Source: an uncultured Candidatus Poseidoniales archaeon
GTDB taxonomy: Archaea; Thermoplasmatota; Poseidoniia; Poseidoniales; Thalassarchaeaceae
Reading direction: 5' to 3'
DNA: 62,410 nt
Assembly (NCBI GenBank): GCA_902625325.1
Contig: CACOAW010000009.1
Location: 1-62,410, forward strand
The translations under genes were made by a program, and so were the position numbers. A model generated the notes under the pieces. That model had not been told where the DNA came from and did not search any database. It was given only the letters and a program-made list of their open reading frames with translations. Numbering within the stretch: position 1 is the first letter of the stretch; every line of letters begins with the position of its first letter. This document shows positions 2,832 to 10,280 of this stretch, in pieces.

Positions 2832-4034
2832 ATGAAAAACATGTCAGCTGACGAAGCCGTGGAAGAAAACAAACGCATCCCAGTCACCGTATTGACAGGT
2901 TTCCTGGGTTCCGGTAAGACCACTCTACTGAATCATATCCTCACAAGTACCGAACACAAGATGAAATTCGCGGTAATCGAGAATGAGTTCGGAGATGTCG
3001 GGATAGACGAGAATATACTCGTTGAAAGCTCAGAGGAGAGCATTATCGAGGTGATGAATGGGTGCATCTGTTGCACTGTAAGAGGAGATCTGACAGATTT
3101 GCTGAAAAGGATGCATGAGAGGATAGAGGACTTCGATGGAGTCCTGATCGAAACGACCGGTTTGGCAGACCCGGCACCAGTCGCTCAAACATTCTTCGTT
3201 GATGACGAAATCGTTAGCAAATACAAGCTAGACGGAATTATCACGGTAGCCGATGCCAAACACATCACCCAGCACCTGGACGAAGAAAAGCCAGAAGGCG
3301 TCGAAAACGAGTCCGTCGAACAGATCGCCTTCGCCGATAGAATCATGCTAAACAAGATCGACCTAGTCTCTGAGGAGGAACTAACAGAGGTTGAAACCAA
3401 AATAAAGTCCATCAATAGGTTCGCGCCAATGTATCGCACCGAGAACAGCATCATTGATCCGGCGAATCTGATTAACATAGGTTCATTCGACCTAGAGAAG
3501 ACCTTGGAAATGGACCCTGAGTTCCTGGATACCGAATCCGAGCATGAGCATGACGACCGAGTAACCTCCACGAGCTCCAAGTTCGTCGGAGCACTGAATG
3601 TGAACAAACTGGAACGATGGATAGGGGAACTTATGCAGAGCAAAGGCGAAGATCTGTTCAGGTACAAGGGAGTTCTGGCTGTCAAGGGAATGGATCAGAA
3701 ATTCGTCTTCCAAGGGGTGCACATGCTCTTCGGCGGAGGCTTCAGTTCCGAAGTAGCTCCCTGGAAGGAGGGGGAGACTCGGGAGTGCCGCTTCGTCTTC
3801 ATTGGTCGAAATCTGGATCACAAAGAGCTTCAGCAAGGGCTGATGGACTGCAAGGCAGAGGAACTAAGATTCAACGTTGGTGACACCGTTTACGCAAACA
3901 TCGGAGAGTTCACAGAAGGCAGGATCCTGAAATGCTGGGATGAAGGCAACCCGTATCGAGTAGAAATCCAGAACGAGGAGAGGTCAAATGTCTGGGTCCC
4001 CATCGACAGCGATGACTATGTCATTCCGGGGTGA
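2832..4034 (+). CDS. CobW/ZNG1-type G3E GTPase (metallochaperone)
   Basis: 400 residues. Walker A GFLGSGKTT at 23-31, the family metal site CxCC at Cys78/Cys80/Cys81, an ETTGLADP switch and NKID base-recognition motif place it in the COG0523 G3E family, whose members load zinc or cobalt into target enzymes. A HEHDD patch (about residues 237-241) adds metal ligands before the CobW C-terminal domain. The last ~50 residues (from about 348, VGDTVYANIGEFTEG onward) form an extra small beta domain not present in ordinary CobW proteins. It heads a locus of pirin, ZnuBCA and a NikR-like regulator, which supports a zinc role. Start ATG 2832 has AGGAA just upstream; Met4 is an alternative. Confidence 0.88.
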   Translation: MKNMSADEAVEENKRIPVTVLTGFLGSGKTTLLNHILTSTEHKMKFAVIENEFGDVGIDENILVESSEESIIEVMNGCICCTVRGDLTDLLKRMHERIEDFDGVLIETTGLADPAPVAQTFFVDDEIVSKYKLDGIITVADAKHITQHLDEEKPEGVENESVEQIAFADRIMLNKIDLVSEEELTEVETKIKSINRFAPMYRTENSIIDPANLINIGSFDLEKTLEMDPEFLDTESEHEHDDRVTSTSSKFVGALNVNKLERWIGELMQSKGEDLFRYKGVLAVKGMDQKFVFQGVHMLFGGGFSSEVAPWKEGETRECRFVFIGRNLDHKELQQGLMDCKAEELRFNVGDTVYANIGEFTEGRILKCWDEGNPYRVEIQNEERSNVWVPIDSDDYVIPG

Positions 4035-5010: not shown

Positions 5011-5946
5011 CTATCTTGCAAGAAGGGGGTTCGTTCTGAAAAATGGAAGAATAACTAGCTGAATTAGCGCTACTACAAGAAAAATTGATGCTGAGGTTAG
5101 AGCTATCGTGGAGCCCGTACCAGTCCTTAACTCCGCAGAGACATAAATCCCGATAATGGTTGATGATAGTCCGAACACCTGCGCCCATATGAGGCATGAT
5201 CGGAAGCTCCTTGATACGATCTGAGAAGTCGCAGCGGGAGTAACCAAGAGGGCGGTAACCAACAGAGCTCCAACAAACTGCACCATGCTTACCACTACTA
5301 CGGCAGTGACTATGCTGAATGTCCTCCCTATTCTATTTACAGGGATGCCCTGGATCTGGACGGAAATAGGGTCGATTGCAGTTGCCAGCAAGACATGACG
5401 GAAAATTCCGAGGAAGGCCATGGAAAAAAGACTCATCCAGACAATGATTTCGAAACTATCTTCATAGATAAGGAGGATATTTCCAAACAAATAACCCTCC
5501 ACAGTATGGGTGATCCCCCCTCCCCAATAAGAAAGACCAAACAGTCCCAATGCAAGCACTCCTGTCGAGAATATTGCAATCGCTGCATCCCCTGTTAGTA
5601 TTCCCCTGGTCTGCAACTCGTGGATTAGGAGTGATGAAACGACACTGAAGAATAATGCATACCAAAGAGGAGATGCGGCACCCAATACGAGCCCTACTGC
5701 AACTCCGCCGAATGTAACATGGGCTAAGCCATCACCGATTAATGCGAGATTCCTAATCAATAGGAATGAGCCTAGATATGAAGCCACCATCGTTACCAAC
5801 AAGGCAGCAACAAACGCATTTTGGAATAATGGTACTGTGAAGAACGAGGGGAAAATCTCTCCGGGAACATGTGGAGCTATGCGTTCCATTATCGGGGATA
5901 TATAATGCATTAATTCAGAACCGAGTTTCATATTCATCATCCTCAT
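5011..5946 (-). CDS. znuB: Zinc/manganese ABC transporter permease (ZnuB-like)
   Basis: 311 residues with about eight hydrophobic helices. It has the ABC-3 family hallmarks near LIGDGLAHVTFGGVAVG and the cytoplasmic coupling region DPISVQIQGI. It forms the membrane channel of a metal importer with the ATPase encoded immediately upstream (3 bases between stop and this start) and the binding protein before that. Several Met codons follow the annotated start (Met3, Met4, Met6), so the exact N-terminus is uncertain. Manganese instead of zinc cannot be excluded from sequence. Confidence 0.9.
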   Translation of the reverse strand: MRMMNMKLGSELMHYISPIMERIAPHVPGEIFPSFFTVPLFQNAFVAALLVTMVASYLGSFLLIRNLALIGDGLAHVTFGGVAVGLVLGAASPLWYALFFSVVSSLLIHELQTRGILTGDAAIAIFSTGVLALGLFGLSYWGGGITHTVEGYLFGNILLIYEDSFEIIVWMSLFSMAFLGIFRHVLLATAIDPISVQIQGIPVNRIGRTFSIVTAVVVVSMVQFVGALLVTALLVTPAATSQIVSRSFRSCLIWAQVFGLSSTIIGIYVSAELRTGTGSTIALTSASIFLVVALIQLVILPFFRTNPLLAR

Positions 5947-5949
5947 TAA

Positions 5950-6747
5950 TCATTGGTGCTCATGACTATGGTCGTCATGGACGTGTATTATCCCCCTCAA
6001 TCCAGCCAGGGAGGAAAAGTCAGGGACCTCATCTGACGGTCCATCGAATCTCACGCTCCCTTCAAGGTAGACGATTCGATGGGCTGCCTGTGTTATCGTG
6101 GTCAAATCGTGAGAAACCATCAGCACAGTCATATTTTCTTTGTGACACAGGCCATCTAACAATTTCAGCAGAGAATTTCTCGAGGGCAGATCCACTCCTA
6201 CCAGAGGCTCATCCAAGAGTAGGAAATCGGCTTCAGATGCTAGTGCTCTAGCGATTACTGAACGTTGAAGTTGACCCCCCGATAGTCTTCTTACGTCAGT
6301 ATCCGCCATATCGACGAGTCCGACCATTTCCAATGCGCTGTTAACTCTCGCATTCCTTTCTGAGCTTCCCATAATGAGCATACTCTGCGGATTTAGAGTA
6401 CCCAATCTAACCAGTTCTCTAACAGTGATTCGAATATTGCTAGACAGGTTTGAAGCGGCCTGTGGCACCCACCCTATTCTTCCATGATCAGAGTTCGAGA
6501 AACGCTCTTTTCCGTATACTCGGACTATGCCACTCGTGTTGGGGACAGGTTCCAGAAGCCCCAGGATGGTCAGAAGAAGTGTCGTTTTACCACTCCCATT
6601 CGGGCCGACCAATCCTACGAACTCGCCCTTTCTGATTTCTAAGTCCACATCTTGGATCACTATTTCGCCAGAACGTGCCACAGATAAGTCACTTATTTGC
6701 AGGAGGGGGGCCGTTGACTCCACTCCCTTTAGAGAACTCAGCCCCAT
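5950..6747 (-). CDS. znuC: Zinc/manganese ABC transporter ATPase (ZnuC-like) with His-rich tail
   Basis: 265 residues. Walker A GPNGSGKTT at 48-56, ABC signature LSGGQ at 155-159, Walker B LLLDEP near 176-181 and the switch His in MVSHDL. It powers the ZnuB channel. The last residues (HVHDDHSHEHQ) form a histidine-rich tail, unusual for the ATPase and possibly a cytosolic metal sensor or acceptor. ATG 6747 is preferred because GGAG lies about 11 bases upstream; a TTG at 6756 would add three residues. The middle gene of znuA-znuC-znuB. Confidence 0.9.
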   Translation of the reverse strand: MGLSSLKGVESTAPLLQISDLSVARSGEIVIQDVDLEIRKGEFVGLVGPNGSGKTTLLLTILGLLEPVPNTSGIVRVYGKERFSNSDHGRIGWVPQAASNLSSNIRITVRELVRLGTLNPQSMLIMGSSERNARVNSALEMVGLVDMADTDVRRLSGGQLQRSVIARALASEADFLLLDEPLVGVDLPSRNSLLKLLDGLCHKENMTVLMVSHDLTTITQAAHRIVYLEGSVRFDGPSDEVPDFSSLAGLRGIIHVHDDHSHEHQ

Positions 6748-6810
6748 CTCACGCAACTCTCCTAGAAGCCCTCGAGAGGATGGCCCTCAAGAGGGACCTC
6801 CTCAATCCTC

Positions 6811-9759
6811 CTAGCAACCCAGGCCAGTTTTCAGAGCCTCGAGGTTCTTCCTCATCAACGAAAGATAATCATCGTCACTATCAATCGGCGGTAGTTCCAT
6901 GGTGTAGAGAGTCTTAACCTCAAGTCCACTGGTCTGTTCCACTATTGCGGCAACTGCATTTGGAGAGGTGTACTCTTCCACGAAAAATACTGTGATGCCC
7001 TCTTCCTCGATTTTATCTATTACCTCGAGAATGTCGGCAGCCGATGGCTCTCCTTCTGGATCCAGGCCGTGGACGGTTACAAATTCCAAACCGTATCTCT
7101 TGGCCATGTAAGCATAGGCATTGTGATTTGCAGCAACTGTGGTCCCTGTACAGGTGCTCGTTGAACCGAATGCGGAGTCGAAGTCTGAATGTAGGGAATC
7201 CAACTGTTCTACGAATGCCGCAGCGTTCTCTGTGAAAGCAGCCTCCCCGCTTGGGAACGCTACTATTAGGGCATCTAGTACAATGCCGATTTGCTCCTTG
7301 TATGACAAAGGATCTAGCCAGCTGTGTGGGTCAAATTCGAATGCTTCCTCGCCTTCACCAGCGACAATCTCCTGATCCGAGTGTCCTTCTGTCCACATAT
7401 GGCCTGCAGCCACGCAATCAGCCTCGTTGGATTCGTAGTTCTGGTGGCTTGTTGTGTTGTGGCAACCTCCTCCTACGTGATCGCCATGATCATCACCCTC
7501 GATCCACATGTGACCTGCAGCCACGCAATCAGCCTCGTTGGATTCGTAGTTCTGGTGGTCTGTTAGGTTGTGGCATACTCCTTCGTGGTGGTCATCGTGA
7601 TCGCCATGGTCGCCATGGTCACCATGGTCACCGTGGTCACTGTGCCCACCCTCGCCCATCAGAATGAAGAATTCCACGCCCATGGGCAAAGCGAAACCGT
7701 AATCACCCTCTTCCTCTATGTGAATAGTGGCATAACCAACTGGGCCATCGTGCTTTGCGTGTTCTTCGTGACCATCTCCCATAAGCTCGATGAATGCAGA
7801 TAGTTCTGATATGTTCAGTAGTCGGTTACCATCGACATCTGACATGTTGAACATCTCCATCAGGACTTCCTCCTCATCGTGGTGTTCGCCATGGTCGTCG
7901 TGGTCGTCGTGGTCGTCGTGGTCGTCGTGGTCGTCATCCTCGATAATCCATCCATTCCAAAACTCATCCCAAGAGATGTTGCTGTCGTTATTCGCATCGA
8001 AATGCTCCATGACCGTACCTGGCGTCATTTCTACGTAATCTTCCTCGAACTCCTCTACGAGTTCCATGAAGGCCATCAGTTCTGACATGTTCAGTAGTTG
8101 GTTACCATCGACATCTGACATGTTGAACATCTCCATGAGAACTTCCTCCTCATCGTGGTCGTCGTGGTCGTCGTGGTCATCGTGATCATCCTCAGTCACG
8201 TTTTCCTCATCGTGGTGTTCGCCATGGTCGTCATCCTCTGCAGTCCAAGCGGCCCAAATCTCATCCCATGAGAGATTGCTGTCATTGTTGGTGTCAAAGC
8301 TCTCCATGGCCTCCTCTGCAGTCATGTGATCTTCGTGGTCATCGTGATCGCCATGGTCGCCATGGTCGTCGTGGTCGCCATGGTCGTCGTGATCGCCATG
8401 GTCGTCGTGGCCGAGCGCATCGGCTCCTTCCTGAGCGATGGGCTCTATTGGATTTCCAGCAGAATCATGAAGGTAATGTTGGTCACGCTCAAATTCAGTT
8501 GGTACGTGCTGGGCATACATTGCCAGTCCAGAAATTCCAGCCGTTTCAATCGTGAAGGTAGAGTCGTCACCCGAACCGACGTGCAGTTCGAAGCATGATC
8601 CCGCTGTGTCAATTGAGGACATAGTCTCGCCGTCTTCCACTATTGTGCATGAATCACCTTCGATCAAGGCTTCTACCCCATTTTCTAGTGCGTGCATTGT
8701 TGCCTCAGTCGGAGTGTCAGTCGGGATTAGGACAAGGCGCATGGTAGGGTCGGCGTATGCTCCGTCAACTTTCTGCATCGTCCATGTGTGAGTTGAATCG
8801 CTCATCGAGAACATTCCAGCCCACTCGAATGGTCCAGCACCGTGACCGTGGTCATGGTGATGATGGGCGTGCCCACCAGGCATCTGCAGAGCTACCATGT
8901 TGAAATCGTGAATATCCTCGGATTCGAATTCTATTACGTGTTCTCCCTCTTCTAGGTGGAAAATCATGATAACTGTCCCTGTTGGGCATCCTGCTGGGTT
9001 CTCAATCGTCTGTTCGGCAGCAGCATGATTGTGACCATCATGGTGATCTTCGTGGTCATCGTGGTCGTCGTGGTCTCCATGGTCATCGTGGTCATCGTGG
9101 TCTCCATGGTCATCGTGGTCGTCGTGATCCTCCTCATCACTTTCGGGGATTGTCAGCGAATGTGCCACGCGCTCTGCATGAATCTCCACCTCTCCAGCGT
9201 GTGACTCCTCGTCTGCAAGGATAACTGGTTCGTATGGGCCCTCCGACATGGTCTCACACAGGTCTTCGATCAATATGGACCCGTAATCCAACGAAACCTC
9301 TCCTGAGGGCATTGCATGGGTCTGAATTGCGGTCGGCGCATTGTTACCCAGGGCATCCATTGTCACATCGACCCATGGTTCCAGGTTCAATCCGTGATAG
9401 AAGAACAGGTCTGCATCCATGAATGCCACATAGTCGGCCACTGTAGGCTCGAAGTCGTGAAGAGGAACGTTCTCTGGAATGAGCATCTGTACGTTTAGAT
9501 GCTCGCCCCCTACTGCGGATACTAGTTGCTCTATATGATAAGTCGAAACTAGAACATCTCCAAGAATCTGCACCTCTGCGGTCCCGTTATCCAATGTTGT
9601 CCCGTTTTCCACCGCGGTGTTGTTTTCGTTCATCGAATCGTCAAGCTCTTCTTCAATTAAGTCTTCGATCTCTTCCACTGCTTCGTCCTCAAGACATCCT
9701 GCGACGCTCGAGAAGATCAGCAACAAGCTCGCCAAAATTGCCATTCTACCGTTGTTCAT
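6811..9759 (-). CDS. znuA: Giant ZnuA-like zinc-binding lipoprotein with His/Asp-rich EF-hand insert
   Basis: 982 residues against about 310 for ordinary ZnuA. A lipobox VAGC puts the lipid anchor at Cys22. The cluster A-I binding-protein halves are intact: N-lobe with LHDFEP (His101), then C-lobe with FDPHSWLDP (His812), AANHNAYAYMA (His879) and FFVEEYTSPN (Glu928). Between His101 and His812 lies a ~640-residue insert made of dozens of HD/HG/DH units, a Cys-containing beta domain (about 255-425, with HAHHHHDHGHG), four canonical EF-hand loops (489-500, 549-560, 588-599, 641-652) and two near-identical Cys/His repeats (about 729-755 and 766-792). ATG 9759 is chosen because a TTAAATA box at 9783-9789 predicts a near-leaderless mRNA; GTG 9768 is possible. 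It acts outside the membrane, delivering metal to ZnuB. Confidence 0.9.
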   Translation of the reverse strand: MNNGRMAILASLLLIFSSVAGCLEDEAVEEIEDLIEEELDDSMNENNTAVENGTTLDNGTAEVQILGDVLVSTYHIEQLVSAVGGEHLNVQMLIPENVPLHDFEPTVADYVAFMDADLFFYHGLNLEPWVDVTMDALGNNAPTAIQTHAMPSGEVSLDYGSILIEDLCETMSEGPYEPVILADEESHAGEVEIHAERVAHSLTIPESDEEDHDDHDDHGDHDDHDDHGDHDDHDDHEDHHDGHNHAAAEQTIENPAGCPTGTVIMIFHLEEGEHVIEFESEDIHDFNMVALQMPGGHAHHHHDHGHGAGPFEWAGMFSMSDSTHTWTMQKVDGAYADPTMRLVLIPTDTPTEATMHALENGVEALIEGDSCTIVEDGETMSSIDTAGSCFELHVGSGDDSTFTIETAGISGLAMYAQHVPTEFERDQHYLHDSAGNPIEPIAQEGADALGHDDHGDHDDHGDHDDHGDHGDHDDHEDHMTAEEAMESFDTNNDSNLSWDEIWAAWTAEDDDHGEHHDEENVTEDDHDDHDDHDDHDEEEVLMEMFNMSDVDGNQLLNMSELMAFMELVEEFEEDYVEMTPGTVMEHFDANNDSNISWDEFWNGWIIEDDDHDDHDDHDDHDDHGEHHDEEEVLMEMFNMSDVDGNRLLNISELSAFIELMGDGHEEHAKHDGPVGYATIHIEEEGDYGFALPMGVEFFILMGEGGHSDHGDHGDHGDHGDHDDHHEGVCHNLTDHQNYESNEADCVAAGHMWIEGDDHGDHVGGGCHNTTSHQNYESNEADCVAAGHMWTEGHSDQEIVAGEGEEAFEFDPHSWLDPLSYKEQIGIVLDALIVAFPSGEAAFTENAAAFVEQLDSLHSDFDSAFGSTSTCTGTTVAANHNAYAYMAKRYGLEFVTVHGLDPEGEPSAADILEVIDKIEEEGITVFFVEEYTSPNAVAAIVEQTSGLEVKTLYTMELPPIDSDDDYLSLMRKNLEALKTGLGC

Positions 9760-9795: not shown

Positions 9796-9806
9796 CTAAT
9801 AATTAG
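9796..9806. promoter_or_regulatory. Perfect palindrome in the znuA/nikR-like divergent promoter
   Basis: CTAATAATTAG is an 11-base perfect inverted repeat (5+1+5) lying just upstream of the znuA TATA candidate in the 89-base divergent region. It may be a second operator half or chance in AT-rich DNA. Confidence 0.3.
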
Positions 9807-9808
9807 GT

Positions 9809-9833
9809 TATTCAAAATTATTATTAGTGAATA
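9809..9833. promoter_or_regulatory. Candidate operator: TATTCA-N13-TGAATA
   Basis: Inverted repeat with 6-base arms and a 13-base spacer, 16 bases before the regulator ATG and about 50 before znuA. NikR-type proteins bind widely spaced dyads (E. coli NikR uses GTATGA-N16-TCATAC), so the geometry suits the adjacent regulator. Binding is inferred. Confidence 0.45.
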
Positions 9834-9848
9834 GCAGTTCTCGTGTTC

Positions 9849-10280
9849 ATGACACAGATAATATCCTTCAGCGCGGACACAGATTTCGCTAAAGATCTGG
9901 ACAATATGATTTCCAAGTCCGGCTACAGCAACCGAAGCCGTTTCATTCGAGATGCATCGCTATTCTATGCTGAGATGCAGCAGAGAGGGGACTTGGAGAA
10001 TATGGATGGGGAACTGACAATCGAGGGGCATCTAGTCGTTTATTACCAGCATGACCATGGAGATAGTCAGAGGCTTTTGGACCTGCGGCACTCCGAACTA
10101 ATCGAGGTGGCATCATACAGTCATAGCAGTCTCAAGCACAGCCACTCGTGCGTTGACGTTCTTCAGGTAAAGGGCAAAGCTGCTAACATCAGGTCCGTGA
10201 TATCCCGCCTCAATAATACCCCTCACGTGGACAAGGTTTCTTTCATCATCGCCCCGATGCGTGAGGATGGATGCTGCTAA
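9849..10280 (+). CDS. NikR-like ribbon-helix-helix metal regulator
   Basis: 143 residues. An N-terminal ribbon-helix-helix DNA-binding domain (1-45, with GYSNRSRFIRDA) is followed by the ACT-like metal domain of NikR (about 58-137). If aligned to E. coli NikR, His81, His92 and Cys101 match ligands H76, H87 and C95, while the H89 position is Ser94. Extra histidines occur at 97 and 99 and the C-terminus ends GCC. The ligand set therefore looks altered. Divergent placement from znuACB suggests it represses zinc uptake instead of nickel uptake. ATG 9849 fits the family start; GTG 9843 adds two residues. Confidence 0.8.
   Translation: MTQIISFSADTDFAKDLDNMISKSGYSNRSRFIRDASLFYAEMQQRGDLENMDGELTIEGHLVVYYQHDHGDSQRLLDLRHSELIEVASYSHSSLKHSHSCVDVLQVKGKAANIRSVISRLNNTPHVDKVSFIIAPMREDGCC

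Follow-up and report, generated by a model that had tools for sequence, protein, structure and literature searches.

A large modular insert in the ZnuA-type metal receptor of marine Poseidoniales archaea

Introduction

His-rich loops of zinc receptors and accessory domains fused to such receptors are already known. In the zinc receptor AdcA, whose ligands have been named as His63, His140, His204 and Glu279, an additional folded metal-binding domain of the ZinT type stands at the C terminus, with the His-rich loop where the two domains meet (PMC7858048). The receptor ZrgA of Vibrio cholerae, which has another fold, carries a long His-rich loop, some 60 residues in length (the deletion removed 124-184), that was reported to be not essential, though it adds zinc sites in vitro (PMC9820375). 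Here we analyse a znuA gene from a window of 62,410 nucleotides (positions 1 to 62,410 of contig CACOAW010000009.1, assembly GCA_902625325.1) belonging to an uncultured archaeon of the Poseidoniales, or Marine Group II (MGII), and the insert of several hundred residues that divides its product.

The locus resembles those of the cluster A-I receptors ZnuA, AztC and AdcA in having both receptor halves, His3Glu ligands, an operon with an ATPase and a permease, and a metal-rich loop at the same place, whereas the loop here spans 215-815 residues (in the 43 of 54 related proteins for which a script set both boundaries; its motif missed the other 11) and holds folded-looking modules. Unlike in AdcA, the extra domains lie inside the loop, and the part of the ZrgA account that was available does not mention EF-hands (PMC9820375). 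The exoprotein ZepA was considered as a relative and is reported to be absent from archaea (PMC10957091). A search of the open-licence literature by titles and abstract openings found no description of the insert or of the unnamed domain, here called FEWAG, that it contains.

Results

The gene is an open frame of 982 codons on the minus strand, from an ATG at 9759 to a stop at 6811. Pfam family ZnuA (PF01297) matches it at 199.1 bits (cut-off 29) in two separate stretches at the protein ends, and between the N-lobe and a DPHSW motif, the site of the His-rich loop of ordinary ZnuA, lies an insert of about 649 residues (646 by scripted boundaries, including 78 His and 101 Asp). The parts of the protein are as follows.

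6811..9759, minus strand: znuA, lipoprotein metal receptor with insert (982 aa; PF01297, E 1.2e-58)
9694..9759, minus strand: signal peptide and lipobox VAGC, residues 1-22, with Cys22 (by reading)
9292..9564, minus strand: ZnuA N-lobe, residues 66-156, with ligand candidate His101 (Pfam match, alignment)
7345..9291, minus strand: whole insert, residues 157-805 (limits read from the ZnuA matches and alignment A2)
9130..9291, minus strand: core0, residues 157-210, with invariant Cys168 (54/54 proteins)
9022..9129, minus strand: His/Asp tract 1, residues 211-246 (by reading; dN/dS comparison)
8854..9015, minus strand: core1, residues 249-302, with invariant Cys258, His297 and His302 (GGHAHHHH; 54/54 proteins)
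8431..8835, minus strand: FEWAG domain, residues 309-443 (21/54 proteins; modelled)
8320..8409, minus strand: His/Asp tract 2, residues 451-480 (by reading)
8236..8319, minus strand: EF-hand 1, residues 481-508, loop 489-500 (Pfam; loop pattern)
8149..8235, minus strand: His/Asp linker between EF-hands 1 and 2, residues 509-537 (loop-pattern analysis)
7942..8148, minus strand: EF-hands 2 and 3, residues 538-606, loops from 549 and 588 (EF-hand_7, 538-600)
7873..7941, minus strand: His/Asp linker between EF-hands 3 and 4, residues 607-629 (loop-pattern analysis)
7774..7872, minus strand: EF-hand 4, residues 630-662, loop from 641 (loop-pattern analysis)
7642..7740, minus strand: core2, residues 674-706, second half of the split core (51/54 proteins)
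7582..7641, minus strand: His/Asp/Gly tract, residues 707-726 (by reading)
7393..7581, minus strand: two Cys/His repeats, CHNxTxHQNYESNEADCVAAGHMW, residues 727-789 (module scan)
6814..7344, minus strand: ZnuA C-lobe, residues 806-982, with His812, His879 and Glu955 (Pfam match, alignment, AdcA alignment)

The residues His101, His812, His879 and Glu955 are invariant in all 54 aligned proteins, the window's included, and A20, G21 and C22 of the lipobox are nearly so. The C-lobe can be aligned to AdcA, where Glu955 falls on a Glu that we read as the probable ligand Glu279, and the ZnuA halves are predicted to form a high-affinity His3Glu zinc site. Scores remained below the NCBIfam equivalog cut-offs for AztC (127.8 against 350) and ZnuA PRK09545 (40 against 268), and no ZinT domain is among the Pfam matches, so that the protein does not qualify as an AdcA-type ZnuA-ZinT fusion. 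An earlier sequence-only reading of the window had assigned both halves to the ZnuA family, named His101, His812 and His879 as ligands and placed an insert of about 640 residues at the loop site; all of this is borne out, while Glu955, the fourth candidate ligand, had been overlooked.

The closest relatives with named records are Ca. Poseidoniales and Marine Group II archaea. Together with the window, 65 loci (L041-L105) were examined, which gave 64 distinct genes once two copies had been removed (L048 and L052, copies of L041 and L044; L052 represents L044 in alignment A2); four further loci, L115-L118, were excluded from all counts. Both ZnuA halves lie in one open frame in 54 of the 64 genes (L077 starts at a contig end), eight genes are cut by contig ends, and in two (L074 and L082) the halves stand in overlapping frames. 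The 54-protein set was picked from matches with long open frames, and hence not at random; it includes the window and counts genome G050 twice. In this genome two znuA loci (L063 and L064) with different inserts were seen, in frames of 826 and 680 codons. Of eight other genes only the C half was found, seven of them running open into a contig end and one (G066) broken at a run of N, which indicates that assemblies often break in znuA, probably in the repeats. An assembly error, which the sequence-only reading had named as its possible undoing, is contradicted by the 54 uninterrupted frames. Moreover, a separate record, that of isolate AG-422-I18 (L041), has a ZnuA with a longer insert that shares 94% of the aligned columns with the window's protein, and the single-contig genome G148 has an open frame of 864 codons; the frame of G022 has 936 codons in two listings and 1342 in another.

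The window's own genome (1.42 Mb in 33 contigs, 79% complete) has one detected znuA. Across the order, PF01297 was found in 85 of 145 genomes and gave no match in 60, many genomes being incomplete, which agrees with a report of a zinc transporter in most Poseidoniales that is missing in deep-water genera (PMC6461757). Among the PF01297 matches listed for the 85 positive genomes, none spans the family from end to end (the N-half ends by position 101 and the C-half starts at 57 or later), and thus no ordinary, uninterrupted ZnuA was seen among them. Viral contigs were searched for related loci and yielded none.

The insert proved to be lineage-wide, modular and unstable in content, which the sequence-only reading had missed. 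Its fixed part is a core in which Cys168, Cys258, Gly272, Phe278, Phe286, Met293, Gly295, His297 and His302 are invariant across the 54 aligned proteins. The core was detected in 135 of 292 genomes of the class and, in a search of 389 genomes of the phylum, in 63, all of them inside the class; L117 has, by reading, the core and His/Asp tracts only. Where one additional Cys-containing beta domain had been proposed, the beta part stood and the number did not, since the insert has two probable beta parts, the split core (157-302 and 674-706) and the FEWAG domain (309-443). By reading, the strand order of the split core resembles that of FEWAG, and a profile alignment of the two (hhalign) scored 22.5, higher than any of 30 column shuffles (at most 19.3), though its probability was 9.9%; the idea that the core is a divergent FEWAG domain is suggestive, not convincing. 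The best matches of the core to solved structures, a ubiquitin chain (E 0.0029) and Apaf-1 (E 0.0044), were not credited because the profile includes the His-rich stretch.

The FEWAG domain, of 135 residues, occurs in 25 copies in 21 of the 54 proteins, and the other 20 aligned copies are 52-96% identical to that of the window. No Pfam family matched it in a search up to E 10. Counting elements that reach the listed minimum length, a two-sequence model (predicted template modelling score, pTM, 0.59) has two helices and seven strands, of which six come in two runs of three. A Foldseek comparison of this model with solved structures returned nothing at E 0.001 or better, and the best profile match to solved structures had E 0.29. 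The GOLD domain 7rrm was considered as the fold (probability 0.72 but E 0.35) and is not claimed.

The same domain recurs in other metal proteins, which the sequence-only reading had also missed. Outside Poseidoniia it was sought by tblastn of plasmid records, each search matching 7 to 11 of 72,556 records. Metal receptors of the haloarchaea Halorubrum (L119) and Halorientalis (L120) have a single FEWAG at the same loop site, set between His/Glu/Asp tracts, although these proteins have 523 and 511 residues and, by reading, lack the Poseidoniia core, EF-hands and Cys/His repeats. In Pantoea (L123:2347-3699) and Paraburkholderia (L124:2593-3696) FEWAG, here too without a Pfam match, is inserted between cobW and CobW_C of COG0523 GTPases, which differ from the receptor in being presumably cytosolic and, by reading, in having no other module of the insert. 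Haloarchaea also encode FEWAG as stand-alone lipoproteins (lipobox by reading). The sequence-only reading would have been refuted by relatives with the insert as a separate protein: the whole insert was not found as such in the genomes searched, whereas its FEWAG part does exist separately in these lipoproteins. One of them, on a Natrinema plasmid (L125:2875-3426), stands right after ureG, ureD, ureE and ureF, a position that hints at nickel. An Alicyclobacillus gene (L121:3782-4693), by reading a membrane protein with FEWAG in a loop and with no Pfam match, lies near annotated cation transporters and a metal-sensitive regulator. A single weak match beyond the class within the phylum (G503, E 8e-4) was not relied on.

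Besides FEWAG, the insert carries optional modules. The four EF-hand loops that had been noted earlier were found, starting at 489, 549, 588 and 641, and in Pfam the protein scored 45.8 bits for EF-hand_7 (cut-off 30) and 42.2 for EF-hand_1 (cut-off 25.4). EF-hand_6 matches 34 of the 54 proteins, and a filtered search for the loop pattern gave 117 occurrences, spread over 37 of them, against 4 in one shuffle of the same set. Among 80 neighbouring pairs of EF loops, 34 are joined by a linker that has four or more His and in which His, Asp, Glu, Gly or Asn make up 55% or more, and 17 by one that has no more than 45 residues and no more than a single His; the 34 His-rich linkers make the EF-hand pair with an intervening His/Asp linker a recurrent unit. 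The two Cys/His repeats, also described earlier as nearly identical, agree by reading in 22 of 24 residues (729-752 and 766-789). In total, 91 copies of this repeat are present in 39 of the 54 proteins, the counts of CHN and CYD modules overlapping, and in the window's own genome, at 79% completeness, the repeats were found in this gene only. Less common are a DUF4430-like module in 11 of 54 (a label given by reading, for which Pfam gave no support), low-density lipoprotein (LDL) receptor A-like modules, seen in 4 of 54 (the single one compared with Pfam scored 28.3 bits for PF00057, cut-off 24.1), and one further module in 2 of 54. A small secreted-looking protein, DUF4430-like by reading, adjoins znuA in a relative from another family of the class (L115:1579-2058), and LDL-receptor-A-like repeats were seen in the archaeal ZnuA inserts of L069 and L088.

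The content of the insert changes between close species, and whole-module gain or loss in a nutrient receptor at this scale is unusual. FEWAG presence requires 16 changes on the lobe tree by a quick method, or 11 if starred branches alone count, against a mean of 16.7 with shuffled labels (207 of 500 shuffles as low as observed). Five close pairs, chosen by us, differ by presence or absence of FEWAG at tract borders, and His/acid tracts stand on both sides of 20 of the 25 copies, against 55 of 420 random stretches. Within each of L047, L049 and L054 the two FEWAG copies of the gene are identical in all 402-405 bases. Recent duplication or gene conversion could account for this, as could near-copies collapsed by the assembler; a fourth gene has two copies that differ from each other. 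The ratio of nonsynonymous to synonymous divergence (dN/dS), from the single pair of the window and L041, was 0.061 for FEWAG, 0.026 for core1, 0.146 for core0 and 0.063-0.068 for the ZnuA lobes, so that FEWAG looks to be under purifying selection in this pair. For the His/Asp tracts dN was 0.03 and dS 1.7, which is due in part to the lack of a one-to-one alignment of repeats.

Downstream of znuA lie ZnuC- and ZnuB-like genes, and a NikR-like gene is divergent to it. These neighbouring features are listed below.

5950..6756, minus strand: ZnuC-like ATPase (ZnuC match in 54/54 loci; in L042 it is 3.2 kb distant)
5011..5946, minus strand: ZnuB-like permease (PF00950, E 1.6e-52; ZnuB match in 52/54 loci)
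2832..4034, plus strand: COG0523/CobW GTPase near the operon (Pfam cobW and CobW_C)
9843..10280, plus strand: divergent NikR-like ribbon-helix-helix regulator (PF08753, 36.9 bits, cut-off 22)
9797..9823, no strand: inverted repeat TAATAATT-N11-AATTATTA between znuA and the NikR-like gene (by reading; spacer scan)

The NikR-like gene is present at 49 of the 54 loci. Its scores lie below the NCBIfam NikR equivalog cut-offs (TIGR02793, 36.1 against 175.45; best model NF003381, 55.1 against 105), while among 54 aligned rows, copies included, His94 is kept in all, His101 in 93% and Cys103 in 94%, and a terminal Cys pair is found wherever that end was aligned. By reading, the His/His/Cys spacing of the metal site is shortened. 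Upstream, a spacer of 11 was the best of 24 tried, with perfect 8-base arms in 16 of 53 regions against a shuffled mean of 2.7; an operator pattern composed by hand matched 31 of 53 regions (10.5 in shuffles) but was devised after looking and is not relied on.

Discussion

We consider it fairly probable that the insert is a modular surface antenna that gathers transition metal, probably zinc, for the ZnuA cleft. In this proposal the His-rich loop of a zinc-type ATP-binding cassette (ABC) importer's receptor would have been expanded into a set of modules. A beta core, probably closed by a disulfide, would hold the GGHAHHHH cluster near the mouth of the cleft, the His/Asp tracts and FEWAG would offer many weak sites for transition metal, zinc being the most likely, and the local metal concentration would thereby be raised beside the high-affinity His3Glu site, which would pass the metal to ZnuBC. 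The EF-hand pairs, always loaded with calcium, and the Cys/His repeats, of a disulfide type, would serve as folded staples that space the tracts, and the modules may enter and leave as cassettes, probably through recombination in the repetitive His/Asp DNA. The earlier view of an extracellular metal-binding insert holds as far as the sequence reaches, and the insert may have a role in storing or buffering metal.

The role of the EF-hands departs from the earlier suggestion that the protein might sense calcium, which found no support. Calcium in seawater is steady at about 10 mM, and sensing is unlikely because EF-hands would always be loaded there; they are probably calcium-loaded staples rather than sensors. 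One may speculate that an EF-hand pair with its His/Asp linker makes a metal loop closed by calcium. A loose analogy is S100A12, in which EF-hands stand beside His-rich zinc sites and zinc binding is reported to depend on calcium (PMC4762610), although this is an animal protein with no ZnuA part and with its zinc sites at the dimer interface.

Several observations weigh against the antenna. The full-length AlphaFold2 model (six sequences) was of no use and was discarded (mean predicted local distance difference test score 40.9, pTM 0.26), so that the position of the core at the cleft is a prediction from sequence. The metal binding itself is likewise predicted. The loop of ZrgA is reported to be dispensable (PMC9820375), and a loop may therefore be large and yet of no consequence for uptake. 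FEWAG comes and goes too freely to be an essential module, and EF-hand 4 (dN/dS 0.64) and the Cys/His repeats (0.58), with few sites, look little constrained. Flanking by tracts on both sides is incomplete, being found for 6 of 11 DUF4430-like modules, 43 of 91 Cys/His repeats, 0 of 7 LDL-A-like modules and 0 of 2 copies of another module. In addition, the NikR-like regulator points to nickel as much as to zinc.

This last point leads to a different reading, rather unlikely in our judgement, in which a NikR-type regulator controls an importer mainly of nickel (or cobalt) and nickel is what the insert gathers. The divergent gene, with its conserved His94, His101 and Cys103, and the FEWAG lipoprotein adjoining ureGDEF in Natrinema would fit it, as would nickel superoxide dismutase (NiSOD), reported for many MGII clades (PMC10783094). 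However, among 145 genomes, many incomplete, ZnuA and NiSOD occur together in 59, ZnuA alone in 26, NiSOD alone in 34 and neither in 26 (p 0.16, uncorrected for relatedness), and no NiSOD match was present in the window's genome or in 10 other listed genomes of the same genus. This lack of co-occurrence beyond chance and the C-lobe ligands, which align with those of the zinc receptor AdcA, weaken the nickel reading, and the NikR equivalog scores were low, as given above.

Another reading that seems unlikely makes the insert a structure of the cell surface, for instance an adhesin-like part or a spacer. Calcium would then be bound by the EF-hands, the LDL-A-like modules and the Cys repeats, the acidic tracts would be linkers adapted to salt, and any capture of transition metal would be incidental. 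The frequency of EF-hands, the LDL-A-like modules in four proteins and the purely predicted nature of the folded transition-metal sites would suit such a structure. Its difficulty is that the tracts are rich in His and conserve their residues as synonymous sites change, that the core has invariant His in GGHAHHHH, and that the FEWAG matches read are metal receptors, COG0523 GTPases, lipoproteins and one membrane protein, with no adhesin among them.

We regard as quite improbable that the variable modules are a decoy, an exposed loop diversified against phages or grazers in which metal-binding repeats are merely tolerated. FEWAG is gained and lost about as often as with shuffled labels, and modules come and go between close species, both of which such a loop would explain; nevertheless, no diversifying point substitution is apparent, given the low dN/dS of FEWAG in the one pair and the identity retained across its 20 copies. 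Finally, an assembly or binning artefact, which the genes stopping at contig ends or at a run of N and the two with overlapping frames might suggest, is scarcely credible in view of the 54 single frames, the isolate record and the frame of the single-contig genome.

Beyond the antenna itself, we put forward tentatively, as a possibility and not as our expectation, that these proteins are a combinatorial receptor family, in which ZnuA and the core are fixed and the folded metal modules of a cassette bay (FEWAG, EF-hand pairs with their His/Asp linkers, Cys/His repeats and LDL-A-like repeats) are swapped at the scale of species through recombination in His/Asp repeats, giving each lineage its own antenna. 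FEWAG might be a hitherto unrecognised, general metal-handling domain of the His-loops of ABC receptors and of COG0523 metallochaperones in archaea and bacteria, and calcium-loaded EF-hand pairs might clamp His/Asp linkers into closed zinc loops.

Conclusions

The NikR-like gene and the conserved inverted repeat beside znuA suggest a regulator of zinc uptake in archaea, which in 2009 were described as being without Zur, a DtxR-like ZntR having been predicted in Methanosarcina (PMC2770081); we infer that the NikR-like protein may fill this role in Poseidoniales. FEWAG is common to archaeal and bacterial proteins as different as metal receptors, COG0523 GTPases and lipoproteins that stand alone, so that one biochemical study could explain an unnamed part of several metal pathways. 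Free zinc is reported to be low in surface seawater (PMC6461757). Poseidoniales are abundant in these waters and uncultured, and how they may gather zinc is a question to which the insert suggests a testable answer.

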